Part shown: one piece after another, positions 7,733-38,247 of the stretch | Numbering within the stretch: position 1 is the first letter of the stretch | Layout: each line of letters begins with the position of its first letter | Source: an uncultured Bacteroidales bacterium | Lineage (GTDB): Bacteria; Bacteroidota; Bacteroidia; Bacteroidales; Paludibacteraceae | Length of the DNA: 39,615 nt | NCBI GenBank assembly: GCA_902778935.1 | Contig: CACYZT010000016.1 | Span: forward strand, 1 to 39,615 | Direction: 5' to 3' | Program-made: the position numbers and the translations under genes | Notes under the pieces: model-generated | Told to the model about the DNA's origin: nothing | Seen by the model: the letters and a program-made list of their open reading frames with translations, nothing else | The model's database searches: none

Positions 7733-7746
7733 ATTAACCATTAACC
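7733..7746. repeat. two 7-bp tandem units covering the ysxC stop codon
   Basis: ATTAACC occurs twice in a row (7733-7739, 7740-7746). On the coding strand the units GGTTAAT run through the last codons and the TAA stop of ysxC. Confidence 0.5.
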
Positions 7747-8363
7747 CTTACGTTGAGCCCTTCGATGTAAGACGTAAGCTCTTCTCCGCCTAATCCGGTC
7801 TCTGAACTCGTCACGAATACCGGCGGTAACTCTTCCCATTCTTCTAACAGCCGCGCCTTGTAAGCCTCTACATTCTCGCTTAACCGTACTTTGCCCAATT
7901 TGTCGCCTTTGGTAAACACAATCGCAAACGGCACGCCGTTTTCGCCCAACCAGTTGATGAACGCCACGTCAATCTGCTGCGGCTCGTGGCGACAGTCAAT
8001 GAGCACAAACAGGCACACGAGTTGTTCGCGGAGCAGGCAGTACCGTTCAATCATTTTTTTGAGCGCCTCTCGCTGTTTCTGCCCTGCCTGCGCATAACCG
8101 TAACCCGGCAAATCCACCAAGTGCCACTCTTGGCTTTGTCCTTCAGCGAAGCGGTCTGTGCTTTGCACTAAGAAATGATTGATCAGCAACGTCTTGCCCG
8201 GTTTCTGACTGGTCTTGGCGAGCTTCGGATTATGGCACAGCATATTGATAAGGCTCGACTTGCCCACATTGCTTCGCCCGATGAACGCATATTCCGGCAG
8301 TGTGCTCGGAGGACAGTCCTTCACGTCCGGACTTGAGATAATATAACGTGCGTCTGTAATCAT
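7734..8363 (-). CDS. ysxC: ribosome biogenesis GTPase YsxC/EngB
   Basis: 209 residues. GTPase motifs in order: G1 GRSNVGKS at 29-36, a Thr-rich switch I (KPGKTLLI), G3 DLPGYGYA at about 83-90, G4 TKGDKL, and G5 VTSSETG. These define the TrmE-Era-EngA-EngB family protein that helps mature the large ribosomal subunit. Length is normal. The ATG overlaps the cstA stop as ATGA, so the two are translationally coupled. The last codons and stop are built of the repeat GGTTAAT x2. Confidence 0.93.
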
Positions 8364-9880
8364 TTGTGTCTTTTAGCCCAAAGGAAGAATATATCTAAAC
8401 AAACGAAGGTCACTATACCGGCCACTACATAACCTATCCATCGTTGCTCAATCGGCAAATCGAAGCCCTCCGGTGCAATGAGGATGTAACTGGTGCAAAC
8501 CATCGTCATGAACAGCGCCGGAATGAGTGCTATCAGAAAACCGAACCTGTCCATTTTACTCCGGTTTTCGATGATGGGCGAAGCGTTCTGGTGTCCTTTC
8601 TTGAACAGCCACACCGTACCGGCCCAAAGCGTGAAACATGCCAGCGTCTGGTTCGTCCAAGCGAAATAACGCCAAATGACGTTGAAATCAACAAACACCA
8701 AACCGAAAACGCATATGAACAGCGGTAAAGCAATCTCCAGACGGTGAGGTGTCGGTCGTTGGTCCATGTGCATGAAATCCGCTACAATCAGACGTGCACT
8801 GCGTAACGCCGTGTCGCCGCTCGTAATCGGAGCAGCAATCACTCCGATGATAGCCAATATACCGCCTACTTTGCCTAACCAACTACGGCTGACCTTGTCA
8901 ATCACCAGCGCAGCGATATTCTCGCCCGGATGTTGAGCAGCAAAAGCCTGCAGACCGTCAATGCCGTACACTCCTTCTTCCGGATTAGCAAAGAAAGTGC
9001 CTGCTGCTGCAGCCCAAATAAGCGCCAAGATACCTTCTGCCACCATCGCGCCGTAGAATATCCAGCGGCCCTGACGCTCATTCGTTATGCATCGCGCCAT
9101 GATAGGACTCTGCGTGCCGTGGAAACCCGAGATAGCGCCGCAAGCAATGCTTACAAACATCATTGGGAAGAGCGGCAAACCGTTCGTCTGGCGGTTGTGC
9201 AAACCGTCAAAAACCTCCGGCATCTCGCTGCTGTGCCAGCCGAGCATCACCACCATGATGCCCAAACCCATAAACAGCAATATAGCACCGAAAATAGGGT
9301 AGAAACGACCTATCAGCTTATCCACCGGCAGGACGGTCGCTAACGCGTAATAGCAGAATATGATGAGAACCCAAGCGATGGGAATAACATGCCCGTGGTA
9401 AGGAATAGCTTGCAAACTATCCAAACCTTGCAGCAAGGTAGCCGGACCGCTCAAAAACGTAGTCGTCAGCAAAATGAGCAGTACCAGACTCAGAATACGG
9501 AGGAATTTCTTCGTATGCTTGCCCAACTCGTCACCCACAATCTCCGGAAGCGAAGCACCACCTTTGCGAATAGAGAGCATTCCGCTCAAGTAGTCATGTA
9601 CACCACCGGCGAAGATAGTACCGAATACAATCCATAGAAAGGCTGCAGGACCATAGAAAATACCCATAATAGCACCGAATATCGGACCAAGGCCGGCGAT
9701 GTTAAGAAACTGAATCAGGAAAATACGCCATGGCGCCATGGGCACAAAGTCCACTCCGTCCGGCTTGGTCAACGCGGGCGTCTTACGGTCCGGCTCAACC
9801 CCAAAAATCTTTTCTACCAACACTCCGTAGGTAAAGAACCCTACCTCCAGCAGCACTAATGCTATCAGAAATGAAATCAT
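8360..9880 (-). CDS. cstA: CstA-family carbon starvation / peptide or pyruvate transporter
   Basis: 506 residues with many membrane helices. Family marks include [31 protein letters not shown] and [17 protein letters not shown], the last a CstA signature. CstA-type proteins are linked to uptake of peptides or pyruvate during nutrient stress; the substrate here is not known. An in-frame start at 9955 would give 25 more residues, but the promoter's -7 box (9925-9932) lies inside that extension, so transcription starts at about 9918 and the first usable start is ATG 9878-9880 ([19 protein letters not shown], directly a membrane helix). Followed by ysxC with an ATGA overlap. Confidence 0.9.
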
Positions 9881-9924
9881 AAAAACATGTATGATTTGAC
9901 GATTTACTATTTGATATGAACGTG

Positions 9925-9956
9925 CAAAGTTACTGCTTTTTTCCGACATATGCAAG
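9925..9956 (-). promoter_or_regulatory. promoter of cstA-ysxC
   Basis: Minus strand: CTTG (9956-9953), 20-bp spacer containing CATATGTC at its start and AAAAAGCAG at its end, TAACTTTG (9932-9925), then CAC. It decides the cstA start at 9880. Back to back with the promoter at 9982-10013. Confidence 0.8.
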
Positions 9957-9981
9957 AAAATTCAAAAAAATTATAAATTTA

Positions 9982-10013
9982 TTTGGTCATATCGGCAAAA
10001 AGCAGTAATTTTG
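9982..10013 (+). promoter_or_regulatory. promoter of the NagB-like/LmbE gene
   Basis: TTTG (9982-9985), 20-bp spacer beginning GTCATATC and ending AAAAAGCAG, TAATTTTG (10006-10013). Predicted start of transcription about 10020, so ATG 10034 is the first usable start and the in-frame ATG at 9983 is excluded. Confidence 0.8.
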
Positions 10014-10033
10014 TATGCCAAATTGAAAAGTCT

Positions 10034-12031
10034 ATGAAAACAAATTTAAGTTCGGAGATTTCGTTAAGCAGAGTGTCGCGTCGTCTGTATTGTCCGGAGG
10101 ACGTGTTTGAGCAGAGCCGTGTAACGCGTATGGAGCAGTTACCGGTAACTATTTATGAGAACGCGCGCGCGGGCTCCGCATCAGTGGCGAATTATATCGC
10201 AGAGCAAATCAGGCAGCGCCAACAGTTGTTCCAGCCCTATGTTGTCTCTTTTGCACCAGGTCGTTCGACGCGTGATATCTTCGCCGAACTCGTCCGCAAG
10301 CACCGTGAGGAAGGATTGAGTTTCAGAAATGTCGTTTTCTTTGACCTCTATGAGTATTATCCGCTCGCGGATAACAAACTCGGCAACCAGGCTCAGTTAC
10401 ATAACCTGCTGCTCGACCATGTGGATATACTGCCGGAGAATATACATTCTATTCCATGGAATATGCGAAAGGAGCAGATTATGCCGTTCTGCCAGGAATA
10501 CGAGCAGAGCATCAAGGCTGCCGGAGGAATAGATTTTCTGCTGCTTGGCGTCGGTCGCTGCGGTAATATTGCCTTCAACGAACCCGGTTCGTCCTTCAAC
10601 TCGCTCACGCGACTTGTCCTGCTGGACAACAACTCCAAGGAGGACGCGAAAATCATGTTCGGCTCGATTGATCAGGTGCCTGTGAGTGCAATCACGATGG
10701 GTATAGATACCATTCGTCACGCGAAGGAAATCATGCTCGTGGCATGGGGCGAACATAAGGCAGGCATTGTGCGGGAAGCAGTAGAAGTACGCGTAGACTC
10801 CTCTTGCCCTGCCTCCGCCCTGCAGTTACATAAGAACGCACGTGTGATGCTTGACCTGAGCGCAGCCTCGCAGCTCACACGTATTATGACGCCTTGGGTT
10901 GTGACGGGTTGCGATTGGGATGACCAACTCATCCGCCGAGCCGTTGTTTGGCTCTGCCAGCAGACAGGCAAACCTATTCTCAAACTGACCAACAAAGATT
11001 ATAACGACTACGGCCTGAATGAACTTATCACGCGGTTTGAGTCTGCGTATAACTGCAATATTAAGGTTTTCAACGACTTGCAGCATACCATTACCGGTTG
11101 GCCGGGAGGTAAACCCAATGCAGACGACTCGAATCGTCCCGAACGCGCCAAACCGTACCCGAAAGATGTGCTTATTTTCTCGCCTCACCCGGACGATGAT
11201 GTGATTTCTATGGGCGGAACATTTGCGCGTCTGATTAAGCAGGGACACAATGTACATGTGGCGTATGAGACAAGCGGTTGTATTGCCGTTTGCGACGATG
11301 AAGTCGTTCGCTTCATGGATTTCCTTAAAGGGTACGGCCAACTTGGTCTGTTAGGCGCAGGCAAAGAACCGGTAAATAAGAAATACGACGAGTACATGCA
11401 TTTCTTCCGCGATGAGAAAATAGGAGACCAGGATACGCGAGAAATCCTTGATCTAAAGGCGCTTATCCGTCGCGGCGAAGCTACTGCTGCCTGTCGCCAC
11501 ATGGGACTTCCTACTGACCATATTCACTTCCTCAATCTGCCGTTCTACGAGACCGGAACAATCAAGAAAGGTCCGTTAACGGAGGCCGATTGTACAATCG
11601 TTCGTGAACTGCTTGAGCAAATCAAACCGCACGAGATGTTCGTTGCCGGCGACTTGGCAGACCCTCATGGCACCCACCGCGTGTGCCTCGATGCCGTGTT
11701 AGCGGCATTGGATGAATTGCGTCATACGAAGGCGTGGGATGAGTGGCTCAAAGATTGCCGTATTTGGATGTACCGTGGTGCATGGATGGAATGGGAGGTG
11801 GACTTGATTGAAATGGCTGTTCCGATGTCGCCGGAGGAGTTGCGATTCAAACGAAACACCATTCTCAAGCATCAGAGCCAAATGGAGTCTGCGCCGTTCA
11901 TGGGCAATGACGAGCGTCTGTTCTGGCAACGCGCCGAGGACCGTAATCATGCGACCGCCGAACTGTACGCGCGTCTCGGTCTTGCCGACTACGAAGCCAT
12001 CGAAGCTTTCGTACAATACAAGATGAAGTAG
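10034..12031 (+). CDS. NagB-like (glucosamine-6-phosphate deaminase fold) / LmbE-PIG-L deacetylase fusion
   Basis: 665 residues. The first about 280 form a NagB-type domain: phosphate-loop region VVSFAPGRST (70-79) and GVGRCGNIAFNEPGSS (172-187). The C-terminal part is an LmbE/PIG-L domain with the zinc motif SPHPDDDV (383-390) and DLADPHGTHRV further on. This fusion is typical of Bacteroidetes. Aligned with E. coli NagB, the catalytic Asp72, Asp141 and His143 positions appear as Y106, C176 and N178; only Glu148 is kept (E183). Deaminase activity is therefore doubtful, while the deacetylase half looks intact. Probable role in amino-sugar metabolism or sensing. The start is fixed by the promoter at 9982-10013. 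Monocistronic, with a terminator after it. Confidence 0.85.
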   Translation: MKTNLSSEISLSRVSRRLYCPEDVFEQSRVTRMEQLPVTIYENARAGSASVANYIAEQIRQRQQLFQPYVVSFAPGRSTRDIFAELVRKHREEGLSFRNVVFFDLYEYYPLADNKLGNQAQLHNLLLDHVDILPENIHSIPWNMRKEQIMPFCQEYEQSIKAAGGIDFLLLGVGRCGNIAFNEPGSSFNSLTRLVLLDNNSKEDAKIMFGSIDQVPVSAITMGIDTIRHAKEIMLVAWGEHKAGIVREAVEVRVDSSCPASALQLHKNARVMLDLSAASQLTRIMTPWVVTGCDWDDQLIRRAVVWLCQQTGKPILKLTNKDYNDYGLNELITRFESAYNCNIKVFNDLQHTITGWPGGKPNADDSNRPERAKPYPKDVLIFSPHPDDDVISMGGTFARLIKQGHNVHVAYETSGCIAVCDDEVVRFMDFLKGYGQLGLLGAGKEPVNKKYDEYMHFFRDEKIGDQDTREILDLKALIRRGEATAACRHMGLPTDHIHFLNLPFYETGTIKKGPLTEADCTIVRELLEQIKPHEMFVAGDLADPHGTHRVCLDAVLAALDELRHTKAWDEWLKDCRIWMYRGAWMEWEVDLIEMAVPMSPEELRFKRNTILKHQSQMESAPFMGNDERLFWQRAEDRNHATAELYARLGLADYEAIEAFVQYKMK

Positions 12032-12093
12032 TGCACTACGATACGAAGTAAGCATCTGCAATAAGAAGGTCAAAGTGCCTTCTACAACAAAGA

Positions 12094-12117
12094 AGGACAC
12101 CATTTGGTGTCCTCTTT
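12094..12117. terminator. bidirectional terminator between the NagB-like gene and tRNA-Val
   Basis: 8-bp stem AGGACACC (12094-12101) / GGTGTCCT (12106-12113), loop ATTT. Plus strand is followed by CTTTTG, minus strand by TCTTTG, so it can end both converging transcripts. Confidence 0.75.
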
Positions 12118-12121
12118 TGTG

Positions 12122-12196
12122 TGGGCGTTTACGGATTCGAACCGCAGACCCTCTGCTTGTAAGGCAGATGCTCTAAACCAGCTGAGCTAAACGCCC
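12122..12196 (-). tRNA. tRNA-Val(TAC)
   Basis: Cloverleaf readable on the minus strand: acceptor GGGCGTT (12196-12190) with AACGCCC (12129-12123), D arm TAGCTCAGCTGGTTTAGAGC, anticodon stem TCTGC/GCAGA around loop CTTACAA giving anticodon TAC, and T arm with GGTTCGAATCC. The discriminator is A (12122). CCA is not encoded. A full promoter stands about 40 bases upstream. Confidence 0.97.
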
Positions 12197-12236
12197 TCTT
12201 GCTAAGTACGAGTGCCTTGTTTTTCAAAAGCGGGTG

Positions 12237-12268
12237 CAAAGGTACTGCTTTTTTTTGATATGACCAAA
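12237..12268 (-). promoter_or_regulatory. promoter of tRNA-Val
   Basis: Minus strand: TTTG (12268-12265), 20-bp spacer GTCATATC...AAAGCAG, TACCTTTG (12244-12237), CACC. Very similar to the promoters at 814-845 and 9982-10013, including the spacer. Confidence 0.85.
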
Positions 12269-12297
12269 TATTTTTGAAAAAAAATGCAGTTTACCCC

Positions 12298-12990
12298 TCA
12301 TTTTTTTGTATTTTTAGCCTCTTTACGACCAAAAATACGATAATTGTACCATTTTTTGTCCTCATAGCGGTACAAAACGACGTAACAGAGAACACAAATC
12401 AGCGTGCCGACAAGTATGCCTGCAAACACATCCGCAGCGAAATGCTGGCTTAGATAAATCCGGCTGTACCCACCGAGCGTAGCGAGTATAAAGAGGATGA
12501 CTTGCAGCAAGTTCGTTTTCGTCTGCGAGTAGTTTTGCGATGCAAGAATACTGAGGGCAAAGAACAGAGCAAAGAACGAAGTCGTGTGTCCGGAAGGGAA
12601 GGAAAACCAGTAATTCATTCTCACGCCTTCGACAAGCGGTAGTTGGACATCCGGCATATTGGCAGCAAACCATGTAACCGGTCGCGGAGCATTGATGATA
12701 TGCTTGAATAGTTGCGTCGTCAGCGCAGAGACGATCATGCATGAAGAGGCAAAAACACCATTTCCGACACGACTGAAGAGCAGTAACGCTACGCAGATGA
12801 CGTAAGGAAGCCATTCCGCGATTTGCGTATAATATCTATAGAATATATCGCGTGCGGGCGTGTGTCGGTCGCACAGCAGAAGATGCAACTCGGCTTTCGG
12901 AATGCATAAAAGGGCTAAGCCCAATACTGCGAGGAGTATTAGGCTTAGCGTGATAAAGACAGCATTGTGTCGAAACAACTGTTTCATCAT
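12298..12990 (-). CDS. PAP2-family membrane phosphatase
   Basis: 230 residues, about five or six membrane helices. The three motifs of the PAP2 superfamily are present: K96-x6-R103-P (KHIINAPRP), PSGH at 132-135 (general acid His135), and SRIYLSQH at 176-183 (nucleophile His183). Likely acts on lipid phosphates or undecaprenyl pyrophosphate at the inner membrane; the substrate cannot be chosen from sequence. The ATG overlaps the stop of the preceding exported-protein gene as ATGA, so it is the last gene of the surface-protein cluster. Confidence 0.88.
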   Translation of the reverse strand: MMKQLFRHNAVFITLSLILLAVLGLALLCIPKAELHLLLCDRHTPARDIFYRYYTQIAEWLPYVICVALLLFSRVGNGVFASSCMIVSALTTQLFKHIINAPRPVTWFAANMPDVQLPLVEGVRMNYWFSFPSGHTTSFFALFFALSILASQNYSQTKTNLLQVILFILATLGGYSRIYLSQHFAADVFAGILVGTLICVLCYVVLYRYEDKKWYNYRIFGRKEAKNTKK

Positions 12991-15788
12991 TGTATTCTCT
13001 GTCCGTAGATATCGTATATCTCTTCTCCGCGCTGGATAACCATCTGACGGTTCATAATCATCTTCTTAGCCGGTGCGGGAGCAGGTTGCGGCGTATAATC
13101 CGGAACCGATTCTATATGCTGAGCGCACGAAGGAATGGTAACGCCATCCGGGGTAGTGAGTTCAACATAATAGATATCATTGTAGTTGAACGCACTGTCG
13201 GTGTGATAAACCGCTTCCGTGGCACCCGGAATAGGTTTGCCGTTACAGTACCACTGGTAACCCGTGAAGGTGAAACCGGTATTGCCTCCAAATCCGGACT
13301 TATAGACTGCGAGCACATTGTTGAATTTATACTTGAAGATATCGCTCGGATAGTTGATGGTAAAGTCAATCGGGAATACCTTCGGGTCGCAATCATTGTC
13401 GTCCTCTACGGTTAATGTACCATGATAGTTACCCGGCATGGTAATAGAACGGGTAGGCAGGACGATGTCCAACGGTTCTACCGTTACCTGCGTTTTTGCT
13501 ATCAGGTTCGGCACTTCGAAGTAAGCCACCGCAATCTCGCCTTTGGGTTTGTCGTAGGTCAGATAGATATCGCCATCGTCGCCTCCGGTCGGACAAGCAT
13601 GGAGATTAGCACTATTGACGGTCATACTCAGACAATGCTTCACATGCACGAAATAGCGGCGATAGTGGTTACAACGGTATTCATTGATGAGCGTATCTTC
13701 TACATTCGCATCGTCATAATAGGTTTGACCGTTATAACCGATAGCTACATCTTGTCTGACGATAGTATCGAGCGTATCTACCGTCTCTTTACCGTAGTTG
13801 ACGAGATTGATTTTCACGTCGTCATAACAATTGATTTGCGGCAAGGTGTCGTTGGCGCCGTTCGCCAGTTTCTCTGCGCTTCCTACCGGATCTGCCTCCC
13901 ATTCAGCGAGCGTGATACACTCGTGTACTGCGCCACCGATAACGGTATCCGGACGCCAAATACGGAAGGTGAACGAAATAGTTCCTAATTCCACTTCGGG
14001 GTCGTCCGTACAAATCTGACGACCGAAGAGAGTAGCTGTGACGTCATACCAACCCGGTGCGGCGTACTGGTGCATTGTCTGAATAGGTCCGTTGAAGAGG
14101 GTAGTTCCATCTCCGAACTCCCAGTCCACACGCTTGATTTCGTCGGTACCGATAGCGGCATCGAAAGCGACGGAGTCTGCAATACAGAATTTCTCATCGC
14201 TGCGGTATCCGTCCGTGAAAGTAACGCCATTTACGTTAATACCCATTTCTACGGCAGCCGAACCCGCAGAGTAGGCATAACTCTCGTCCTCACCGTTACC
14301 ATAAATCGTAGCGATGAAACCTTTAGCGTTCTCCAGACGGAAGACGCTGAATTGCGAAGTGTTCGCATCGCCGATTTTGGCGCGTGCGTACGAATAAATT
14401 GGGTTGCCGGGAACCGGTTGCCATGTCAGCAAACTGGATTTGTCCAGCTGGGTAGCACCATAAATGGCGGTCAATTTCGTATTTTTGCAAGTAGCCGTCT
14501 CGGTTACCACATTGAGGAAATGGTCTTTCGTCTTGGATGTATAGCAAGTACCGAATGTAATCTTACCGATTTTCTGCTGGATAGGCGAAACCCAAACGGA
14601 TGAAGGGTCGCCAAGATAATCGTCCTTTCCTCCTCTTGTTACTAATTCAGTGCCATTCTTTCCCCTATATCCGTTACCAGTATCATAACTGTAGACAGCA
14701 CATGGGCAGGAGGTTTCAATATACGCAGCATCTTGTGTTAACACTAAGTTTATCGGACTTTCACCTGCATTGTTTCCATTTGGGTCATATGTACCCTGAA
14801 GCATGATATAATATGTTTCACCTTCATTGATAGATGCTTGTACATAGCCGTCCACTTTGATTTTTGTGTTATTTTGAGTGGCAGTTATGCCAATGAGATT
14901 TCCATCTTTCTCAAGCGATCGGGTCACGATGAACTGTGTTCCCCAGTACTCTATTGGCATGGATTGTTCAAATAAGCAGTCACGCGCAGCGATGCCGGTA
15001 GGAAGATTGGTAATAGGAACACCGCAATAGACGGCGATTTTCTTACCATTCTTAGCCAATATATGAGTTCCGGCGAGTCGATCGCTTTTTTTTGTGATCA
15101 GATAGTAGGTCTGACCTTTGTTGAGCGTAATCGGGTGGGTGGAACCACTTACCCATCCGTCAAACGTATCACCGTTCGGGGTAATGTCAATCTGCGTATT
15201 GTCTTCGGTACCAAGGATAGTAGTCAAGCCGACTGCGTTGTCAAAACCGCTTTTCACCTTCGACCAGTAGTCCTGTGTGTAGTATTCGCTACCAAGGGCA
15301 GTCATCGGTAGGATGTTACTTGCGTCCATCGAGTGCTGGGAACTCAAGATTACATAAACGGAGACATTCTCTGTGGCCGTGACATGCAAACCATACATAT
15401 TCTTTTGCGTCGCCACCAGGGTAGAGACGTTATTGGCATCGTTCATATTCGTCGGATACCATTTGGACGCGTCCATATGCACGTTAATCAAGCCGGCCTG
15501 AGGATTTTTCTGTTCAGGTTTTGAATTATTGCCAAACTCATTCCACGAACCGGCTGCGACATTCTGAACGATGTTGATGGCATTGCCCACGCCACCTTGG
15601 ATGGTTACGGTACAGGCTTTCTCCGCAGAGACAGCGATGTAGGGAGTAGGTGTAGCCTTGTCCGGCGAACAAACGAGCGACGAACTAACCCAGAACTCTT
15701 TTCCCTGCGTTGAGGCTTGACTCCATGCGGAGAGGGTAGTGCACGCGAATATCGCTACAAGCAATAGTGACTTAAATTGTTTTTTCAT
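12987..15788 (-). CDS. large exported IgGFc-binding-like protein with PKD domain and short C-terminal tag
   Basis: 933 residues. Signal peptide about 1-22 (MKKQFKSLLLVAIFACTTLS), then an IgGFc-binding-like N-terminal domain (about 25-430): STQGKEFWVSSS, LHVTATENVSVYVI, ILGTEDNTQIDITP, FEQSMPIEYWGTQFIVT. These features also occur in the 888-residue protein of this cluster. A PKD-like domain follows (VDWEFGDGTTLF, then GWYDVTATL), then Cys-containing beta-rich regions. The last 25 residues match the tail of the endonuclease at 20824-22623 without gaps (see findings). Likely outer surface or secreted, in adhesion or matrix roles; ligand unknown. Probably cotranscribed with the OmpA-type gene upstream. 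Confidence 0.72.
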   Translation of the reverse strand: MKKQFKSLLLVAIFACTTLSAWSQASTQGKEFWVSSSLVCSPDKATPTPYIAVSAEKACTVTIQGGVGNAINIVQNVAAGSWNEFGNNSKPEQKNPQAGLINVHMDASKWYPTNMNDANNVSTLVATQKNMYGLHVTATENVSVYVILSSQHSMDASNILPMTALGSEYYTQDYWSKVKSGFDNAVGLTTILGTEDNTQIDITPNGDTFDGWVSGSTHPITLNKGQTYYLITKKSDRLAGTHILAKNGKKIAVYCGVPITNLPTGIAARDCLFEQSMPIEYWGTQFIVTRSLEKDGNLIGITATQNNTKIKVDGYVQASINEGETYYIMLQGTYDPNGNNAGESPINLVLTQDAAYIETSCPCAVYSYDTGNGYRGKNGTELVTRGGKDDYLGDPSSVWVSPIQQKIGKITFGTCYTSKTKDHFLNVVTETATCKNTKLTAIYGATQLDKSSLLTWQPVPGNPIYSYARAKIGDANTSQFSVFRLENAKGFIATIYGNGEDESYAYSAGSAAVEMGINVNGVTFTDGYRSDEKFCIADSVAFDAAIGTDEIKRVDWEFGDGTTLFNGPIQTMHQYAAPGWYDVTATLFGRQICTDDPEVELGTISFTFRIWRPDTVIGGAVHECITLAEWEADPVGSAEKLANGANDTLPQINCYDDVKINLVNYGKETVDTLDTIVRQDVAIGYNGQTYYDDANVEDTLINEYRCNHYRRYFVHVKHCLSMTVNSANLHACPTGGDDGDIYLTYDKPKGEIAVAYFEVPNLIAKTQVTVEPLDIVLPTRSITMPGNYHGTLTVEDDNDCDPKVFPIDFTINYPSDIFKYKFNNVLAVYKSGFGGNTGFTFTGYQWYCNGKPIPGATEAVYHTDSAFNYNDIYYVELTTPDGVTIPSCAQHIESVPDYTPQPAPAPAKKMIMNRQMVIQRGEEIYDIYGQRIQ

Positions 15789-15837
15789 ATAGATAAGTTA
15801 TTTCTTCGTGTGTTCTATATCGGAACTATTTTGGGAC

Positions 15838-15859
15838 ATGGTCCCGTGATGGTCCCGTG
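15838..15859. repeat. two 11-bp tandem units after the OmpA-type gene
   Basis: ATGGTCCCGTG at 15838-15848 and 15849-15859, exact copies. It lies 19 bases past the stop of the OmpA-family gene (minus strand), in the 89-base gap before the 933-residue protein gene. The preceding GGGAC could pair with GTCCC. Confidence 0.7.
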
Positions 15860-15877
15860 GAAATGTCTTATTTTACC

Positions 15878-18028: not shown

Positions 18029-18035
18029 TTGTGTG

Positions 18036-18045: not shown

Positions 18046-18048
18046 AGT

Positions 18049-27943: not shown

Positions 27944-28495
27944 ATTCCGCAAAGACCGCGCGGCGGTCGCGTTATTAAAGAGGACCCCCATCGTATCAAC
28001 GATAAGATACGCGGTGTCCAGCAGGTTCGCCTCATCGGCGACAATATTGAGCAAGGAATCTACTCCTTCCAACAGGCTATGAAAATAGCCGATGACCTCA
28101 ATCTCGACTTGGTTGAGATTGCTCCGACGGCTAATCCGCCTGTCTGTCGTGTCATCGATTACCAGAAATTCCTGTACGCTCAGAAGAAAAAGCAGAAAGA
28201 GGCGAAAGCCAACCAGAAGAAGCAGGAGGTCAAGGAGATTCGTTTCGGACCGCAGACGGATGACCATGACTACAACTTCAAGCTCAAGCACGCGATGGAG
28301 TTCCTTAAGGAAGGCAATAAAGTGAAGGCATACGTCTTCTTCCGCGGACGCTCGATTGTGTTCAAAGAGCAGGGAGAGTTGCTCCTGGCGCGTTTCGCCG
28401 CTGACCTCGAGGAGTACGGCAAACCCGAAAATGTGCCGAATCTCGAGGGCAAACGAATGATTATGTTCATCAGCCCCAAGAGTAGCAAAGGGTAA
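27944..28495 (+). CDS. infC: translation initiation factor IF-3, apparent ATT start
   Basis: 183 residues from ATT 27944. IF-3 marks: [56 protein letters not shown], and [10 protein letters not shown] at the end. An ATG at 27809 is in frame but lies upstream of the promoter's -7 box, and no ATG, GTG or TTG follows in frame before the conserved part. ATT at 27944 (then [18 protein letters not shown]) gives a normal length. E. coli infC also starts with ATT and is self-regulated through it; the same is inferred here. ATA 27935 or ATT 27911 are alternatives. A 17-codon open frame (27873-27926, [17 protein letters not shown]) precedes it in the leader. Confidence 0.9.
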
Positions 28496-28527
28496 TTACG
28501 AGGGTATTACGAGGGTATTACGAGGGT
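28495..28527. repeat. three 11-bp tandem units starting at the infC stop
   Basis: ATTACGAGGGT occurs three times without change (28495-28505, 28506-28516, 28517-28527). The first base is the last base of the infC TAA stop. Confidence 0.85.
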
Positions 28528-28549
28528 AAACCGTATCCCACCTTACCCT

Positions 28550-28685: not shown

Positions 28686-28723
28686 ACGGACGAAGTATTA
28701 ACAAATTAAATTATTATTACAAA

Positions 28724-28887
28724 ATGCCAAAGGTAAAAACGAACTCCGGTGCTAAAAAGCGTTTCACGCTTACCGGAACCGGTAAAATCAAGCGTAAGCA
28801 CGCTTACAAAAGTCACACTTGACTCATGTTGCTTTAGTAGATCAGACGAACATGCGCTCCGTACGTGAGATGCTCTTGCTTCGTTAA
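28724..28887 (+). pseudogene. rpmI: ribosomal protein L35 gene with internal frameshifting deletion
   Basis: Starts correctly ([20 protein letters not shown], then [11 protein letters not shown]) but meets TGA at 28820-28822 after 32 codons. From 28819 another frame gives the normal tail [20 protein letters not shown], then LR and stop at 28887. Between CAC (His, 28814-28816) and TTG (28819) only two bases remain where the family has about 12 residues (pattern ILTKKTKKxKRN), so about 34 bases are missing. L35 is a single-copy ribosomal protein and the neighbours infC and rplT are intact, so an assembly or sequencing error is likely; a real lesion with a second copy elsewhere is possible. Confidence 0.85.
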
Positions 28888-28919
28888 GTATTAACCACCA
28901 AAACTGAAAGGAAAGAGAA

Positions 28920-29288: not shown

Positions 29289-29294
29289 GGTAAA

Positions 29295-29330
29295 ACGATT
29301 CGATTTATCGAAATTTCGATATTTCGATAT
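29295..29330. repeat. short repeats of CGAAAT/ATTTCG after the rplT stop
   Basis: Within 36 bases just past the rplT stop, CGATT is repeated (29297-29305) and ATTTCGAT occurs twice (29313-29320, 29321-29328). The stretch also contains the palindrome ATCGAAATTTCGAT. The ATCGAAAT motif recurs as a tandem pair after the AAA ATPase gene (38232-38247). Confidence 0.5.
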
Positions 29331-29359
29331 CCCGAAAAAAAGTTCTTACAAACAAAAAG

Positions 29360-29386
29360 GCTCGCAGGAATGCGAGCTCTTTTTTT
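29360..29386 (+). terminator. Rho-independent terminator of infC-rpmI-rplT
   Basis: 7-bp stem GCTCGCA (29360-29366) / TGCGAGC (29371-29377), loop GGAA, then TCT and a T run to 29386. Confidence 0.88.
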
Positions 29387-29410
29387 GTGCCTTATATTAT
29401 AATCTTCGGT

Positions 29411-29860: not shown

Positions 29861-29882
29861 GGCTAATTTCCGACAGATGTTT

Positions 29883-30806
29883 CTATAAAATTGCCGCTAT
29901 TTGACTCTCCAGTTCCTTGCTGGCGGGAACGAGCGGAAGGCGGAGGTGGTTCGAGATGATGCCTTTTTGCGCCAGCACGGCTTTGATGCCCACAGGGTTG
30001 CCTTCGGCAAAGAGCAGTTTCACCATCTCTGCGTAACGGGCTTGGAGCTCTCGGTCTTGGTTATGCACGATATGCCAAAAGTCCTCAGGGAAGGCGTTCG
30101 AAGCCACAGAGATGAGTCCTGCTCCGCCGGCTTCCATAACCTCACAGGCGATACCGTCATCGCCGGAGATGACTAATAGACCGGCTTCGCCTGACAGACC
30201 GCTTTGCTGACAGACCGCTTCGCTGTTAGACCGCTTCGCTGTTAGACCGATTAACCTTTTTATTTGTTCTATGTTGCCGCTGGCTTCTTTGATGGCGATG
30301 ATTTTATCGGGGTGGGCATGATAGATGCGCATAACGGTCTCGGGCAGCAGGTTGACTCCTGTGCGTCCCGGTACATTGTATAGAATGACAGGAATCGGAC
30401 TTGCCTCCGCTATTGCGCAGAAATGTTGGAACAGGCCTTCCTGATTAGGTTTATTGTAGTACGGGCATACGCTAAGGATAGCGGTAAAGTCTAGGATTAG
30501 CTCGTCTTTCATAGCCTTTAGGTCCGAGATCACCTGTGCGGTGTTATTGCCTCCGACGCCTAAGACCAGCGGAATTTGGTGTTGGCTTGAGCTTTGGTGT
30601 TGGTGGACATAATCGACGATGAAGCGGCACACCTCTCGTTTCTCTTCGGCGGTCATAGTAGCGGCTTCGCCGGTGGTACCAAGGACGACGAGATAATCCA
30701 CGTATCCGGTCAGTTGCGTGTCTAAAAGCCGTGCAAGGGCTTCGTAATCAACACTTTGGTCTGCTTTGAAAGGCGTAATCAACGCCGTGCCTAATCCTTT
30801 AATCAT
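29883..30806 (-). CDS. dapA: 4-hydroxy-tetrahydrodipicolinate synthase with repeat-coded insertion
   Basis: 307 residues. Catalytic Lys173 (AIKEASGN), Tyr143 (LYNVPGRTG) and the GTTGE loop (43-47) are all present. Condenses pyruvate with aspartate semialdehyde toward lysine and diaminopimelate. Two parts are unlike the family: QHQSSSQHQ (about 69-77), coded by an 18-bp repeat, and about 17 extra residues (KRSNSEAVCQQSGLSGEAG, about 191-209) coded by four 16-bp repeat units (30178-30250). Both fall between secondary-structure elements, and the frame stays open, so the enzyme may still work. The start overlaps the preceding gene by eight bases. Confidence 0.93.
   Translation of the reverse strand: MIKGLGTALITPFKADQSVDYEALARLLDTQLTGYVDYLVVLGTTGEAATMTAEEKREVCRFIVDYVHQHQSSSQHQIPLVLGVGGNNTAQVISDLKAMKDELILDFTAILSVCPYYNKPNQEGLFQHFCAIAEASPIPVILYNVPGRTGVNLLPETVMRIYHAHPDKIIAIKEASGNIEQIKRLIGLTAKRSNSEAVCQQSGLSGEAGLLVISGDDGIACEVMEAGGAGLISVASNAFPEDFWHIVHNQDRELQARYAEMVKLLFAEGNPVGIKAVLAQKGIISNHLRLPLVPASKELESQIAAIL
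30178..30250. repeat. 16-bp tandem repeat array inside dapA
   Basis: Units starting AGACCG: an 18-bp first copy (30178-30195), then AGACCGCTTTGCTGAC (30196-30211), AGACCGCTTCGCTGTT (30212-30227), the same again (30228-30243), and a partial AGACCGA. The whole array reads in frame through dapA. The same unit occurs in the ferredoxin leader (36311-36438). Confidence 0.85.
30575..30603. repeat. 18-bp-period direct repeat inside dapA
   Basis: TTTGGTGTTGG at 30575-30585 and again at 30593-30603. The period is a multiple of three and codes QHQSSSQHQ. Confidence 0.6.
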
Positions 30807-31344: not shown

Positions 31345-31367
31345 TCTTAATTCGTAATTTAGAAGTT

Positions 31368-34978
<3,611 letters not shown>

Positions 34979-34997
34979 TTTTTTTCAATTTTCGGCA

Positions 34998-35029
34998 CAA
35001 AGGTACAATTTTTTTTCGAAATGTGCAAA
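34998..35029 (-). promoter_or_regulatory. promoter of the nuclease-ligA-dapA-dtd run
   Basis: Minus strand: TTTG (35029-35026), 20-bp spacer with CACATTTC at its start, TACCTTTG (35005-34998). Divergent from the promoter at 35045-35076. Confidence 0.8.
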
Positions 35030-35044
35030 TAATAATTCATAAAA

Positions 35045-35076
35045 TTTGCATATATGCAATTTTTGTTGTAACTTTG
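35045..35076 (+). promoter_or_regulatory. promoter of the divIC/ftsB-like gene and ruvC
   Basis: TTTG (35045-35048), 20-bp spacer with CATATATG at its start and TTTGTTG at its end, TAACTTTG (35069-35076), CAGCG. Fixes the gene start at 35097. Confidence 0.82.
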
Positions 35077-35096
35077 CAGCGAAAAATGGAAATGAT

Positions 35097-35396
35097 ATGA
35101 AGTTTTCTGAGTTTTGGGAGACGATAAAGATTCGCAAATGGGGCAAATATGTGATTACATTGTTGCTCTTTTTGGTGGTGTTTCTTTTTATCGGCGACCA
35201 GAGTGTTATTCAGTTTGTGAAGCGCGGTCGTGAGATTCGCCATTTGAAGGAACAGCGCGACATGTACCGTGAGGGAACAGAGAAAGCGCAACGGGAGATT
35301 CAGACGCTTCATCATCCGGACAGCCTTGAGCGTTACGCGCGCGAACAATATTATATGCATACGAGCAACGAGGAAATCTATCTCGTTGAAGAGTAA
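35097..35396 (+). CDS. FtsB/DivIC-like septum formation initiator
   Basis: 99 residues. Short cytoplasmic N-terminus, one membrane helix at about 17-34 (KYVITLLLFLVVFLFIG), then a periplasmic coiled coil (REIRHLKEQRDMYREGTEKA) and a C-terminal YAREQYYMHTSNEEIYLVEE that matches the DivIC/FtsB end motif. Part of the divisome complex with FtsL and FtsQ. An in-frame ATG at 35046 lies upstream of the -7 box and is excluded. The stop is followed at once by three 8-bp repeats. Confidence 0.88.
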   Translation: MKFSEFWETIKIRKWGKYVITLLLFLVVFLFIGDQSVIQFVKRGREIRHLKEQRDMYREGTEKAQREIQTLHHPDSLERYAREQYYMHTSNEEIYLVEE

Positions 35397-35420
35397 TTCA
35401 AATCTTCAAATCTTCAAATT
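35397..35420. repeat. three 8-bp tandem units after the divIC/ftsB-like stop
   Basis: TTCAAATC, TTCAAATC, TTCAAATT, beginning on the base right after the TAA stop and ending four bases before the next ATG. Confidence 0.85.
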
Positions 35421-35424
35421 TTGT

Positions 35425-35586
35425 ATGAAACTATCATCAATACTATTGATAATCGGGCTGGTCATCCTCGCCGTAGGTGCAGCTCTGAGCACGGCAAAAA
35501 TAGAGCCGTGGGGCGATTATGTGCTCATTTTGGGCGCAGTAGTGGTCATCATCCGCGGTTTTGTGCGCAATCGGGAGAAAGATTAA
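35425..35586 (+). CDS. 53-residue membrane protein
   Basis: MKLSSILLIIGLVILAVGAA forms one membrane helix; after ALSTAKIEPWGDY comes a second helix (VLILGAVVVIIRGF) and a basic end (VRNREKD). A two-helix hairpin of unknown function. It sits between the divisome gene and ruvC with short gaps, so it is translated from the same message. Codon use and hydrophobic pattern look real. I recognise no family. Confidence 0.65.
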   Translation: MKLSSILLIIGLVILAVGAALSTAKIEPWGDYVLILGAVVVIIRGFVRNREKD

Positions 35587-35611
35587 CAATTTAACAGTTT
35601 AACTATTTAAC
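35582..35611. repeat. degenerate 8-9 bp TTTAAC repeats over the stop of the small membrane protein gene
   Basis: Four copies of TTAAC spaced 8-9 bases (ATTAACA, ATTTAACAG, TTTAACTA, TTTAACG), starting within the last codon and stop, ending five bases before the ruvC ATG. Confidence 0.7.
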
Positions 35612-35615
35612 GTGA

Positions 35616-36245
35616 ATGCAGGACTTCGTCCGGAATGAACATATAATTTTGGGTGTCGATCCGGGTACGCTGTTTATGGGTTATGCGCTGCTCAAGACGG
35701 TTGGCCAACAGGTTGAAATACTGGAGTTTGGCGCGTATGATGTGCATAAGCTTGAAGGTCAATATCCGCGTTTGCAGAAGGAGTTTTTCTTTCTGCAGGA
35801 GTTGATTGATAAATATCATCCTACTTGTTTGGCGATTGAGACGCAGTTTGTCGATAAGAACCCGCAAACGATGATTAAAATCGTTCATGCGCAGGGTGTG
35901 GCGATAGCAGCTGCTTTGAGCAAAGATGTGCCGATTTATGAGTATTCGCCGATGAAAATCAAGATGGCGATTACGGGTAACGGTCACTCGACCAAACAGC
36001 AGGTGGCAGGCATGCTCCAGCATTTTTTGCACATTCCCGATGAACAGATGCCCAAGAAACTGGACGCGACCGATGCGCTGGGAATAGCCTATTGTCACTA
36101 CCTACAATTGGGTATGCCGGTTAGCGAAGGCGGAGCGAAAGACTGGACTACGTACGCCAAGCGTAAAGGACTGACAGACAAAGGGTTAACAGGTCCGAAC
36201 GCCCAACTGATGGCTGCGCTGGCGAGTGCAAAAAAGAAAAAATAA
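35616..36245 (+). CDS. ruvC: Holliday junction resolvase RuvC
   Basis: 209 residues. Catalytic acids visible: D15 in ILGVDPGT, Glu in LAIETQFVDKN (about 73-83), and the C-terminal Asp pair in KKLDATDALGIAYCH. MKIKMAITGNG is also typical. Resolves four-way junctions with RuvA and RuvB. The C-terminus is longer than usual, about 35 Lys- and Ala-rich residues after MPVSEGG, ending AKKKK. Third gene of its operon; no clear terminator after it, and the next promoter starts 20 bases past its stop. Confidence 0.93.
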   Translation: MQDFVRNEHIILGVDPGTLFMGYALLKTVGQQVEILEFGAYDVHKLEGQYPRLQKEFFFLQELIDKYHPTCLAIETQFVDKNPQTMIKIVHAQGVAIAAALSKDVPIYEYSPMKIKMAITGNGHSTKQQVAGMLQHFLHIPDEQMPKKLDATDALGIAYCHYLQLGMPVSEGGAKDWTTYAKRKGLTDKGLTGPNAQLMAALASAKKKK

Positions 36246-36265
36246 TCATTTTTCTATCCCTAAAA

Positions 36266-36297
36266 TTTGGTAGTGTCAAAAAAATGTTGTATCTTTG
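36266..36297 (+). promoter_or_regulatory. promoter of the ferredoxin gene
   Basis: TTTG (36266-36269), 20-bp spacer with GTAGTGTC at its start and TGTTG at its end, TATCTTTG (36290-36297), CACCGG. The message would have a leader of about 160 bases filled with repeats. Confidence 0.8.
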
Positions 36298-36310
36298 CAC
36301 CGGAATTGGA

Positions 36311-36438
36311 AGACCGGCTGCGCCTGACAGAATACAGACCGACTGCGTCTGACAGAGTACAGACCTATTATGAAAGGTGAATCAGTCTGTCAGCGAGAGA
36401 AACGAGCGGTCTGTCAGTGAAACGGTCTGTCAACAAAG
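36311..36438. repeat. repeat array in the ferredoxin leader, related to the dapA array
   Basis: First part: two 25-bp units beginning AGACCGGCTGCGCCTGACAG (36311-36335 and 36336-36360, four differences). Second part, opposite orientation: CAGTCTGTCAGCGAG (36383 on), CGGTCTGTCAGTGAAA (36407-36422), CGGTCTGTCAACAAAG (36423-36438). The two parts are mutually complementary and could form a long hairpin in the leader RNA. The 16-mer differs by one or two bases from units within dapA. Confidence 0.8.
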
Positions 36439-36465
36439 TAATCTTTAATCTAAAATTAAAATATT

Positions 36466-36630
36466 ATGGCTTACAAGATTTCAACTGATTGTATCGCTTG
36501 CGGTACTTGTATCGATGAATGTCCGATGGGTGCTATCTCTGAGGGCGAACACTATTCGATTGATCCGGACGTTTGCACGGAGTGCGGAACGTGTGCAGAT
36601 GTTTGCCCGAGTGGGGCAATCAGCCTGTAA
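36466..36630 (+). CDS. 2[4Fe-4S] ferredoxin
   Basis: 54 residues. Two CxxCxxCxxxCP clusters: Cys 9, 12, 15, 19 (CIACGTCIDECP) and Cys 37, 40, 43, 47 (CTECGTCADVCP). Clostridial-type small electron carrier, the usual acceptor of pyruvate:ferredoxin oxidoreductase, whose gene lies 1.65 kb downstream. Own promoter and own terminator, so it is made as a short separate message with a 160-base repeat-rich leader. Confidence 0.96.
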   Translation: MAYKISTDCIACGTCIDECPMGAISEGEHYSIDPDVCTECGTCADVCPSGAISL

Positions 36631-36664
36631 AAGGTGGATTTTTTACCGAAAATCGTGTAATTTT

Positions 36665-36698
36665 GAGGGATAACAAGTGTTATTCCTCATTTTTTTTG
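36665..36698 (+). terminator. Rho-independent terminator of the ferredoxin gene
   Basis: 10-bp stem GAGGGATAAC (36665-36674) / GTTATTCCTC (36679-36688) with one G-T pair, loop AAGT, followed by AT and a run of T to 36697. Confidence 0.85.
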
Positions 36699-36718
36699 TA
36701 AAAAATGTAAAGTAAACC

Positions 36719-36749
36719 TTGCAAATATCAATTTTTTTTTGTACCTTTG
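36719..36749 (+). promoter_or_regulatory. promoter of the AAA ATPase gene and nifJ
   Basis: TTG (36719-36721), 20-bp spacer with CAAATATC straddling its start and a T run at its end, TACCTTTG (36742-36749), CAGCG. The leader is about 90 bases and holds a 16-codon open frame (36815-36865, MLKAKKITYIWRKKLH) that overlaps the gene start at 36844. Confidence 0.8.
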
Positions 36750-36843
36750 CAGCGTGATTTCATTTGTTTAGTTCTGGAGGCTAAAAAAATCGTGCCGTAG
36801 GCAGGGTGTTTATCATGCTGAAGGCAAAGAAAATTACCTATAT

Positions 36844-38229
36844 ATGGAGAAAAAAACTACATTAACCGAAAAACAGAGCGAGCTTAGTGAGCTTGAGAAG
36901 TTTGACAAGCTTGCAGAGCAGTCTGATCTGGATGCTTACGTAAAGCTCAATGAGCAGGGTGAGTCTCGAGACCATAAAGCTCCGATCGTGTTAGACGCGT
37001 TTTTCCGGATTCACGATTTTCTTGTATCCCATGCTTCGATGCCCATCCGTCGCCAGCTGATGGACGAGATTAACTGGGATGACCGCTTGATAGCTATCAA
37101 GGGAGGTCGTGGTGTAGGAAAGACCGATTTCATGCTGACACGAATCAAAGAAATCGAAACCGAATGGAGAAACACACCGGAACCCGTGCCGGAGAAAGGC
37201 AAGCGTCGTCCGCGTAAATCGATTCACGATATACGTCCGTGTCTGTACGCTAACATCAACGACTTCTATTTCACGACCAATTCGCTGGTGGATTTCGTCG
37301 GTGCCTTTGTTCGTAAGGGCGGTACACATATCTTCCTGGACCAGTTGTTCAAGTATCCGAACTGGTCTCGTGAACTGAAGCGCTGCTATTACAAGTTCCC
37401 TGATCTTCATATCGTGTTCTGCGCCACGCCGGTGATGCCAATAGATGAGGATAACAATGACCTCAAGGATATCGTCAAGACCTATAACCTCCGCGGCTTC
37501 TCCTTCCGCGAGTATCTGAATCTGCAGACCGGTCTTCGTTTCCGATCCTATACGCTGGAGGAAATCATTCAGCGTCATTCGTCCCTTTCGCGTGAGATTT
37601 GCGAACGGGTGCGTCCGCTTGATTATTTCAACGCGTATCTCCACCACGGCTATTATCCGTCGTATCTCGGGAGTAATTCGTTTGAGGCAGAGCTGTTGAA
37701 GACGATGAACAGCCAGCTTGAGGTGGACGTGCTGATGATTAAGCAGATTGACGTAGCATGTCTGCACAAGTTGCGCAAACTGCTCTATATCCTCATGAGC
37801 GATGCTCCCTGTGCGCTCAATGTGAGCAATCTGTCTGAGGAAATCGGCCTGAGCCGTGCTACGGTGATGAACTATATCAAATACCTCAAGGATTCTCGTC
37901 TGATTAACCTGCTGTATCCGGAGGACAAGAATTTCCCGATGAAGCCGACGAAGGTATATATGCATAATCCGAACCTGGCGCAGATGATTTTCACGCGTGA
38001 GATGGAACCGATAGACCTGTACGAGACGTATTTCTACACGGCTATTCACGGCTCACACAAGGTCAATGCTACCGAGCGCTCGGCGATGTTCATCGTCGAT
38101 AATAACTATTACTTCGATGTTCACGACAAACCGACGATGCGCGATACGATTCGTCCGACGGCGGTGGCGGAACTCGAACTCGGTCGCGGAAACCAGATTC
38201 CGCTCTGGCTCCTCGGATTCCTGTATTAA
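36844..38229 (+). CDS. AAA ATPase with DUF4143-type C-terminus
   Basis: 461 residues. Walker A GGRGVGKT at 87-94. At the Walker B position it reads IFLDQLFKYPNW, so the usual Asp-Glu is Asp166-Gln167. A winged-helix-like segment (SNLSEEIGLSRATVMNYIKY, about 328-347) is followed by the DUF4143-type end ending GNQIPLWLLGFLY. Proteins of this group (AAA_14/DUF4143) are common in Bacteroidetes and mostly uncharacterised. The Glu-to-Gln change would be expected to slow ATP hydrolysis. Its stop is 55 bases before nifJ, and the two probably share a promoter. Confidence 0.82.
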   Translation: MEKKTTLTEKQSELSELEKFDKLAEQSDLDAYVKLNEQGESRDHKAPIVLDAFFRIHDFLVSHASMPIRRQLMDEINWDDRLIAIKGGRGVGKTDFMLTRIKEIETEWRNTPEPVPEKGKRRPRKSIHDIRPCLYANINDFYFTTNSLVDFVGAFVRKGGTHIFLDQLFKYPNWSRELKRCYYKFPDLHIVFCATPVMPIDEDNNDLKDIVKTYNLRGFSFREYLNLQTGLRFRSYTLEEIIQRHSSLSREICERVRPLDYFNAYLHHGYYPSYLGSNSFEAELLKTMNSQLEVDVLMIKQIDVACLHKLRKLLYILMSDAPCALNVSNLSEEIGLSRATVMNYIKYLKDSRLINLLYPEDKNFPMKPTKVYMHNPNLAQMIFTREMEPIDLYETYFYTAIHGSHKVNATERSAMFIVDNNYYFDVHDKPTMRDTIRPTAVAELELGRGNQIPLWLLGFLY

Positions 38230-38231
38230 GC

Positions 38232-38247
38232 ATCGAAATATCGAAAT
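38232..38247. repeat. two 8-bp tandem units after the AAA ATPase stop
   Basis: ATCGAAAT at 38232-38239 and 38240-38247, two bases past the TAA stop; followed by a looser ACAAAT/ATAACAAAT stretch up to the nifJ start. Confidence 0.7.

Follow-up and report, generated by a model that had tools for sequence, protein, structure and literature searches.

Why do so many genes in one 39,615-nucleotide stretch of DNA from an uncultured Bacteroidales bacterium (Paludibacteraceae) end in short tandem repeats, each seemingly with a unit of its own? The stretch, here called the window, is contig C16 of a source genome of 2.18 Mb (90% complete, 41 contigs). The original prediction held that at least seven gene ends carry a tandem repeat near the stop codon, that the units are unrelated, and that this suggests a process making repeats at gene ends rather than a shared functional site, unless the repeats are simply tolerated there. 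The explanation we favor, to which we give about an even chance of being right, is that these are self-renewing spacer arrays of a rumen Bacteroidales lineage, in part the solo form of small cassettes that carry a gene of the S23 family (PF05635/TIGR02436). The nearest named relatives by infC are Bacteroidales and Paludibacteraceae metagenome-assembled genomes (MAGs) or uncultured isolates, many of them rumen-derived.

For each of the 28 stops called in the window, the surrounding 63 bp were compared with dinucleotide shuffles (200, and also 1000). With 200 shuffles, P ≤ 0.05 was reached at seven stops, against 1.4 expected, and these were exactly the seven noted (Table 1); 10/216 coding segments did so in the same test. 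All seven arrays lie where they had been placed. Tandem Repeats Finder (TRF) recovers six of them, missing the ysxC array, which is the weakest and borderline. Gene ends and coding regions came from a simple gene caller that misses small genes (in the window, rpmI and a ferredoxin), and the gene names given earlier were borne out by matches to DivIC (PF04977), IF3, AAA_14 followed by RuvC, YsxC, L20, and an OmpA-type C terminus. The set is a mixture of 7/8-bp arrays and 11-bp arrays (infC and ompA). Its units are unrelated only in part: the rplT unit ATTTCGAT, read on the other strand, is the AAA-gene unit ATCGAAAT, and the two arrays form one octamer family on opposite strands, in which TCGA recurs every 8 bp and is followed by four variable bases. 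The units TTCAAATC, TTTAAC-NN, and TCGA-N4 are all found again at further loci of the source genome.

A survey of 835,615 bases of the source genome showed TRF arrays to be about five times denser in gaps between genes than in coding DNA (212 in gaps, 2.1/kb; 291 in coding DNA, 0.40/kb; 35 mixed). Periods of 7/8, 11, and 14–16 bp predominate in the gaps over those of 9, 10, 12, and 13, which are less frequent. In many gaps an array takes up all the sequence between the stop codon and the start that follows, and 28/68 co-directional gaps of 31–60 bp beat all 40 shuffles (1.7 expected), as did 17/565 random coding segments. The lineage was compared with a single pipeline, in which gaps of 16–300 bp were counted if they beat 40/40 shuffles (chance 2.4%). 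Arrays were present in 74/270 co-directional, 9/36 convergent, and 3/42 divergent gaps of the source genome. The corresponding counts were 20/106, 1/14, and 1/21 for G002 and 22/134, 4/14, and 1/18 for G016 (two genomes of the genus), and 62/211, 12/32, and 2/26 for 29 named relatives, so that 16–29% of co-directional gaps carry an array in these sets; G066 gave 27/112. For co-directional gaps, Flavobacteriales (6/210), E. coli (1/48), and most other sampled Bacteroidales (other families 3/77, other named members 2/44) were near chance. Four further genomes (L115, L117, L123, and L139), namely three Bacteroidaceae MAGs from rumen or omasum and an uncultured member of the Bacteroidales, had arrays in 21/45 co-directional gaps; their heptamer arrays in operon gaps are even denser than those of the source lineage.

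Stop codons themselves account for a modest part of this pattern. With four sets from the genus pooled, arrays were found in 204/817 stop-containing gaps vs 7/107 divergent gaps (p = 4e-6). Array coverage of the first 30 bp after a stop was 15–17% in co-directional and 9–11% in convergent gaps, vs 1–3% beside divergent starts, and beyond 90 bp from the stop it was ∼5% and 3–5%, respectively (L094, which contains a run of N, was excluded from the coverage, placement, orientation, and mutB analyses). On the other side of co-directional gaps, the 30 bp leading up to the start are 10–15% covered, nearly as much as the stop side. Arrays extend into the 12 bases that precede a stop in 5.7% of cases, compared with 2.6% (co-directional) and 0.9% (divergent) for the 12 bases that follow a start. 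In co-directional gaps of 120–300 bp, 33 arrays lay within 30 bp of the stop vs 19.7 under random placement (P = 0.0005), and 15 lay within 30 bp of the start. An enrichment at stops thus survives correction for gap space, at 1.7-fold, in gaps of 120–300 bp and is absent in gaps of 300–800 bp (5 vs 4.2 expected). Much of the apparent preference arises because arrays occupy short intercistronic gaps over their whole length. There is a genuine stop effect of modest size; the scarcity of arrays in promoter-only gaps is the stronger signal, and stop-specific enrichment as the chief driver was set aside.

That a process generates repeats at gene junctions, as originally proposed, is upheld by comparison of close relatives. 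Between G066 and G016, 53 orthologous gaps were comparable, 45 without an array in either genome and eight with an array in either. Exactly one unit separates the two genomes in 2/53 gaps: one measures 40 vs 47 bp (a 7-bp unit; flanks 98% identical) and the other 79 vs 87 bp (an 8-bp unit; flanks 98% and 87% identical). These differences are therefore direct evidence of gain or loss of whole units. Of the other six array gaps, one shows a single base change in CTAG, one is identical, one contains an S23 cassette, and three differ otherwise or outside the array. The unit ATGATGAA is present once in L073 and three times in the same gap of L077. Among related species, one and the same gap can hold different units. 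The gap from divIC to the next gene ranges in relatives from a 0–1 bp junction to arrays of other units. The gap between tpiA and a hexapeptide-repeat gene, picked by its flanking genes, was matched in 71/81 genomes; the 30 loci read hold short linkers, CTAG-N4, GTTAAA-NN, TTTAAC-NN, repeats of 11 and 16 bp, and others. Whether an orthologous gap has an array is correlated between the source genome and named relatives (12/17 vs 28/88; Fisher p = 0.005; one of the 12 is the N run of L094), and the same comparison was not significant with G002 (3/6 vs 3/14) or G016 (1/2 vs 0/3).

The claim of unrelated sequences was not supported as stated: the units fall into genome-specific families, some of which have a constant motif with a variable spacer, and three of these families are also found beside S23 genes. 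The share of array pairs with a common repeated 6-mer was 0.107 within the source genome and 0.095 within each of G002 and G016, compared with 0.024–0.061 in six between-set comparisons, 0.076 among mixed named relatives, and 0.041 for shuffled units. Sharing within a genome, in the three genomes tested, therefore suggests that arrays spread between loci or that a genome-specific factor favors particular units. The commonest 6-mer family of the source genome, AATCGT, occurs in 18/77 arrays. Families are also oriented with respect to the genes in operon gaps (AATCGT 14:2, GTAAAT 8:0, CAAATC 6:2, GGTT 5:0, and GTTAAA 4:1), counts that are informative for the source genome, the numbers in the other sets being small.

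The connection to S23 genes is clearest at the gap with the cassette. In G066, lysS and gpsA overlap by 4 bp. In G016 they lie ∼540 bp apart, separated by a 121-residue gene (PF05635, 83.6 bits) with CAACCTG arrays on both sides in the same orientation, which is probably an insertion in G016 rather than a loss in G066. At this locus (L334, C12 ∼5050–5110), the CAACCTG array is in frame at the called N terminus of GpsA (MSNLQPATCNLQP...) and LysS has a heptad-coded stretch (DRLQVAGDRLQVAG); junction arrays can therefore alter proteins. PF05635 was detected in 63/81 genomes of the genus, with five copies in the source genome, and the closest solved structure is 2gsc (XCC0516; E = 1e-10).

Flanks were tested for 50 of 54 profile-found S23 open reading frames (ORFs), duplicates and contig edges being left out, with 181 similar-sized genes of the source genome as controls. 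Five of the 50 had first been noticed through their arrays (L367, L368, the G016 C12 gene, and the mutB pair described below), and 15 further S23 pieces were chosen in the source genome, G050, G066, and G078, genomes known for arrays. Arrays were found upstream of 32 S23 genes, downstream of 38, on both sides of 23, and on either side of 47; the control values were 46, 43, 15, and 74. The two flanks matched as inverted repeats for 21/50 S23 genes vs 1/181 controls and 5/150 cross-locus pairs, and as direct repeats for 8/50 vs 3/181. Without the five array-noticed genes, the 45 others gave 42 with an array on either side, 20 on both sides, 20 inverted, and 5 direct. The five genes of the source genome all have an array on either side, and three have inverted flanks. 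Outside the genus, 28 of 30 ORFs in 29 loci, among the S23 loci listed across the phylum, gave 20 upstream, 12 downstream, 21 either-side, 10 inverted, and 3 direct, with a cross-locus null of 0. Predicted duplexes between the two flanks at 33 S23 loci averaged −62.7 vs −50.4 kcal/mol for pairs from other loci (p = 0.001). Across the 81 genomes, those with more S23 genes tend to have more matches to CTAG and TTTAAC taken together (rho = 0.46, with no correction for kinship).

Three of the flank families return to the window. An S23 gene of the source genome (G000:C13:66465, L366) has mutually inverted flanks, GATTTGAA upstream and TTCAAATC downstream, the latter being the unit behind the DivIC-like gene. 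In other genomes, S23 genes L367 and L368, selected for nearby TTTAAC matches, carry GTTAAA on the upstream side and TTTAACTC on the downstream side, which is the family seen in front of ruvC. Two S23 genes of the source genome, on C9 and C7, are flanked by the 16-bp AGACCG...CTGACAG family, two members of which lie in the window. Solo copies elsewhere were seen for the TTCAAATC, TTTAAC, and 16-bp families of S23 flanks; AATCGTC was not seen among these families.

In the explanation that we favor, units of 7–8 bp (with the 11-bp units as a separate class) would multiply in place at stop-to-start junctions, and whole units would be gained or lost by slippage-type events. The one-unit differences are observed; the event behind them is what we infer. 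Arrays are found mostly where extra DNA should do least harm, in stop-containing gaps rather than in coding DNA or divergent promoter gaps, with purifying selection the probable cause of their placement. Part of the unit families would be the flanks of small cassettes, each consisting of an array, an S23/PF05635 four-helix-bundle gene, and often an inverted array. Such cassettes are presumably mobile in general, the S23 protein may act on the array, and solo arrays at gene ends would be cassettes without the gene. A bolder form of the proposal makes S23 and its locus-specific 7–16 bp arrays one two-part system across Bacteroidota, in which the gene enters stop-to-start junctions in cassettes bounded by arrays that are often inverted, the protein recognizes or makes the array, and arrays have spread without the gene in rumen lineages to about a quarter of 16–300 bp post-stop junctions. 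We advance this form tentatively, and would sooner expect it to fail than to hold.

Several observations weigh against these proposals. Plain slippage of units leaves the orientation bias and a constant motif with variable spacer unexplained. The AATCGT family flanks 0/5 S23 genes of the source genome; CTAG or TTTAAC arrays occur in 7 of the 18 genomes in which no S23 gene was detected, and G095 combines 74 TTTAAC matches with zero S23 hits (the genomes are incomplete). The G016 cassette has direct rather than inverted flanks, 29/50 S23 genes fall under the inverted cut-off, and the direct matches noted above make up eight of the 50. The control genes come from one genome and the S23 genes from many. 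Across the phylum, 16 neighboring genes also often have arrays (either side 6, inverted 0; 21/28 for S23 vs 6/16, p = 0.02), and inversion is for this reason the clearer S23 signal there. Finally, no S23 flank inspected in detail has 11 as its best period, which places the 11-bp class (infC and ompA) outside the S23 explanation.

Replication slippage of the kind invoked for long simple sequence repeats would need no dedicated factor: a high slippage rate would create the arrays and selection would clear them from coding and promoter DNA. The single-unit differences between relatives, the one-to-three copy change from L073 to L077, and the depletion of arrays in coding DNA and divergent gaps are what it predicts, and in most genomes heptamers are reported to outnumber the other classes of such repeats (cited in PMC4679880). 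It does not account for genome-specific sharing of units between loci, for families oriented with the genes, for S23 genes bounded by inverted arrays, or for the mutB arrays, where CTAG is kept in successive units as the spacers change. In its plain form we consider it possible, if doubtful.

Another alternative is that the 7/8-bp arrays are protein binding sites in DNA or mRNA, with a constant motif (CTAG, TTTAAC/GTTAAA, TCGA, or AATTGA) at fixed spacing that acts on translation or transcription at junctions. The pattern CTAG-N4 ×4 occurs in 38/81 genomes and TTTAAC-NN ×3 in 40/81, with a reversed-pattern control near zero and spacers that mostly differ between units; such arrays reach 14 consecutive units. 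Beyond those searched for, 34 CTAG units were found, and neighboring spacers were identical in 5/84 cases. All seven mismatches of a 12-unit AATTGA-N array (L101) fall at one position, and the orientation of families with the genes also fits. The mutB arrays were examined in the best 30 of 53 genomes. There, the orthologous arrays of L235 and L238, which flank a second, weaker PF05635 relative (below the curated cut-off), keep CTAG in 13/13 units as 18/48 spacer bases differ. This constraint is suggestive only, because the pair was noticed for its long array and the motif changes elsewhere: one CTAG of G066 is CTGG in G016. Related species carry another motif or none in the same gap. A test unbiased by choice of motif, the share of mismatches in the top two phases, gave 0.61 vs 0.54 for period 7, 0.56 vs 0.50 for period 8, and 0.40 vs 0.41 for period 11, so that a constant motif with variable spacer as a rule for all arrays is weakly supported and was not adopted. 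RRM-type RNA-binding proteins (PF00076), one candidate reader, prompted by an RNA match in the window (FopS, below), were detected in 0/25 genomes of the genus, some incomplete, and were rejected. Binding sites are, in our view, an unlikely general explanation.

Much weaker is the idea of insurance stops, that units not a multiple of three place stops in all three frames after a gene. Periods 7, 8, and 11 do dominate in gaps over 9, 10, and 12, stop triplets reach a density of 0.103 on the gene strand and 0.058 on the opposite one, and the TAG or TAA of the motif serves as the gene stop in several arrays. However, the gene-strand density matches that of shuffled units (0.098), three-frame coverage is 54 vs 54.1 expected, 11-bp arrays show no excess, and AATCGTC contains no stop on the gene strand; the shuffled-unit test comes close to refuting the idea, which we hold to be very improbable. 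Least credible of all is an artefact of metagenome assembly, which would suit the MAGs and uncultured isolates among the nearest relatives and two internal deletions in the window that resemble assembly errors, since independent assemblies have the same classes in the same gaps with different units and S23 flank arrays also occur in single-contig assemblies of the phylum (e.g., G153 and G155).

The arrays of this lineage have partial counterparts elsewhere. Short tandemly repeated repetitive sequences (STRRs), or long simple sequence repeats, of cyanobacteria and other prokaryotes are tandem 7-bp units in non-coding DNA for which slippage has been proposed. The present arrays resemble them in having head-to-tail units of ∼7 bp at many non-coding loci and copy numbers that differ between close relatives, but they span operon gaps between stop and start, belong to families particular to each genome, and show an association with a gene family. 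In the repetitive extragenic palindromic (REP) system with its REP-associated tyrosine transposase (RAYT), a gene lies between inverted copies of a short repeat, and solo copies of that repeat are dispersed in gaps. S23 genes with inverted flanks, and the solo copies seen for some flank families, may be a comparable arrangement. S23, however, is a four-helix-bundle family and not a known transposase, and its repeats are tandem with units that vary by locus; no match to a Y1 (HUH) transposase was seen, the flanked gene matching PF05635 alone in Pfam and, in NCBIfam, TIGR02436 and two models below cut-off.

TAACTGA heptamers form direct repeats in marine Beggiatoaceae, some cyanobacteria, and five Bacteroidetes, lying in gaps, mostly just upstream of starts and in some cases over stops, with 169 sets in one genome and some sets adjoining essential genes (PMC4679880). 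Heptamer direct repeats in gaps, some over stop codons, are common to both systems, but a single unit is described there, whereas many units occur here, differing between species and between gaps, together with 8- and 11-bp classes. The unit TAACTGA is absent from 151 arrays of the source genome with a TRF score ≥ 40; the genus was not searched for it. The intervening sequence (IVS) of Coxiella 23S rRNA contains an S23p ORF and terminal inverted repeats, is excised by RNase III, and has tandem heptamers just upstream of the ORF whose number varies between strains (PMC4990558). The S23/PF05635 ORF and the inverted flanks of many cassettes here, in the genus and phylum-wide, recall this arrangement; the likeness concerns the cassettes, the window arrays being solo. 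In contrast to the IVS, the lysS/gpsA cassette sits between protein genes, Rfam found no rRNA in 40 S23 loci scanned (20 from the genus, 20 from the phylum), units vary between loci, and solo arrays occur without the gene. Among the open-access matches listed, no other paper describes tandem repeats in association with S23 genes or with the ends of genes in Bacteroidetes or Bacteroidales.

The 11-bp arrays, including those at infC and ompA, are a separate class, here without a tie to S23. The infC array overlaps a dispersed core of ∼60 bp (pattern CGTATCC...ACCCTATAATATAC..GTATATTATCCCGTGATTTTGAA), present in six copies in 835 kb; 3/5 of the copies not at infC adjoin a TRF-listed 11-bp array of a different unit, and matches to the core are present in many genomes of the genus. 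Among the loci listed, the infC end in relatives has 11-bp arrays of other units or no array. Two ideas about this class were set aside: rho-utilization sites, which have spaced C residues, judged by eye (G predominates in the unit at infC, and that of L075 lacks C) with no formal test, and tandem copies of a transposon target duplication at infC, in favor of which nothing was seen and for which no test was made. Downstream of ysxC, at 7640–7735, GGA recurs every 11 bp with variable letters between and is followed by ATATACACGATTATTAAGATTT; similar sequences adjoin 11-bp arrays in another gap of relatives.

Other observations in the window concern repeats within genes and unrelated features. 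The AGACCGCTTCGCTGAC array is intragenic, though its family is otherwise found in gaps and next to S23 genes. TTTGTCC ×5 at 33200–33234 lies inside ORF 31368–33452, ∼70 codons from its start, and the unit also occurs in gap arrays of the source genome. ORFs 28725–28919, presumably rpmI (L35), and 38285–38700, which we take to be 2-oxoacid oxidoreductase-like, are shorter than their counterparts in relatives by ∼35 and ∼91 missing bases, respectively, and each is frameshifted; assembly errors or recent deletions are the likely cause. An Rfam scan of the window matched the small RNA FopS (RF04319, 737–809, minus strand, 75.7 bits) and one tRNA, and nothing else. One study reportedly deals with FopS and the RNA-binding protein RbpB; the partner of FopS may differ here.

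Table 1. Repeat features of the window, with the seven gene-end arrays listed first
Feature	Position	Strand	Support
ATTAACC ×2 (GGTTAAT on gene strand), over ysxC stop	7733..7746	-	P 0.064 (1000 shuffles), 0.025 (200)
11-bp array CACGGGACCAT ×2 (gene strand), 18 bp past stop of OmpA-type gene	15838..15859	-	TRF + shuffles, P 0.002
11-bp array ATTACGAGGGT ×3, begins on last base of infC stop	28495..28527	+	TRF + shuffles, P<0.001
8-bp array TCGA-N4 ×4, 10 bp past rplT stop	29299..29330	+	TRF + shuffles, P<0.001
8-bp array TTCAAATC ×2.9, directly 3' of DivIC-like stop	35397..35419	+	TRF + shuffles, P<0.001
8-bp array TTTAAC-NN ×3.6, over stop of 52/53-residue gene, ends 4 bp short of ruvC	35583..35611	+	TRF + shuffles, P<0.001
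8-bp array ATCGAAAT ×2.1, 2 bp past AAA gene stop	38232..38248	+	TRF + shuffles, P 0.017
25-bp repeat ×2.2, AGACCG...CTGACAG family	36311..36365	+	TRF; family also flanks two S23 genes of source genome (C9, C7)
16-bp array AGACCGCTTCGCTGAC ×4.4, AGACCG...CTGACAG family, inside ORF 29883-30806	30178..30249	.	TRF
Dispersed ∼60-bp core overlapping and following infC array end; AT-rich palindrome, ends CCCGTGATTTTGAA	28522..28584	+	Genome search

Repeats of this kind can pass for noise when a single genome is viewed. On the reading of the arrays as self-renewing spacers, operon spacers throughout this lineage are built and rebuilt by means of repeats, and the tpiA gap, one gap with several repeat classes in 30 genomes, is a natural experiment in that process. 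If the link to S23 is true, it would join a common protein family without a known function, the puzzle of the rRNA intervening sequence, and the origin of heptamer repeats, and all three questions would be testable in a culturable Bacteroidota strain. If the two-part system is true, it would provide the first function for the widespread S23 family.

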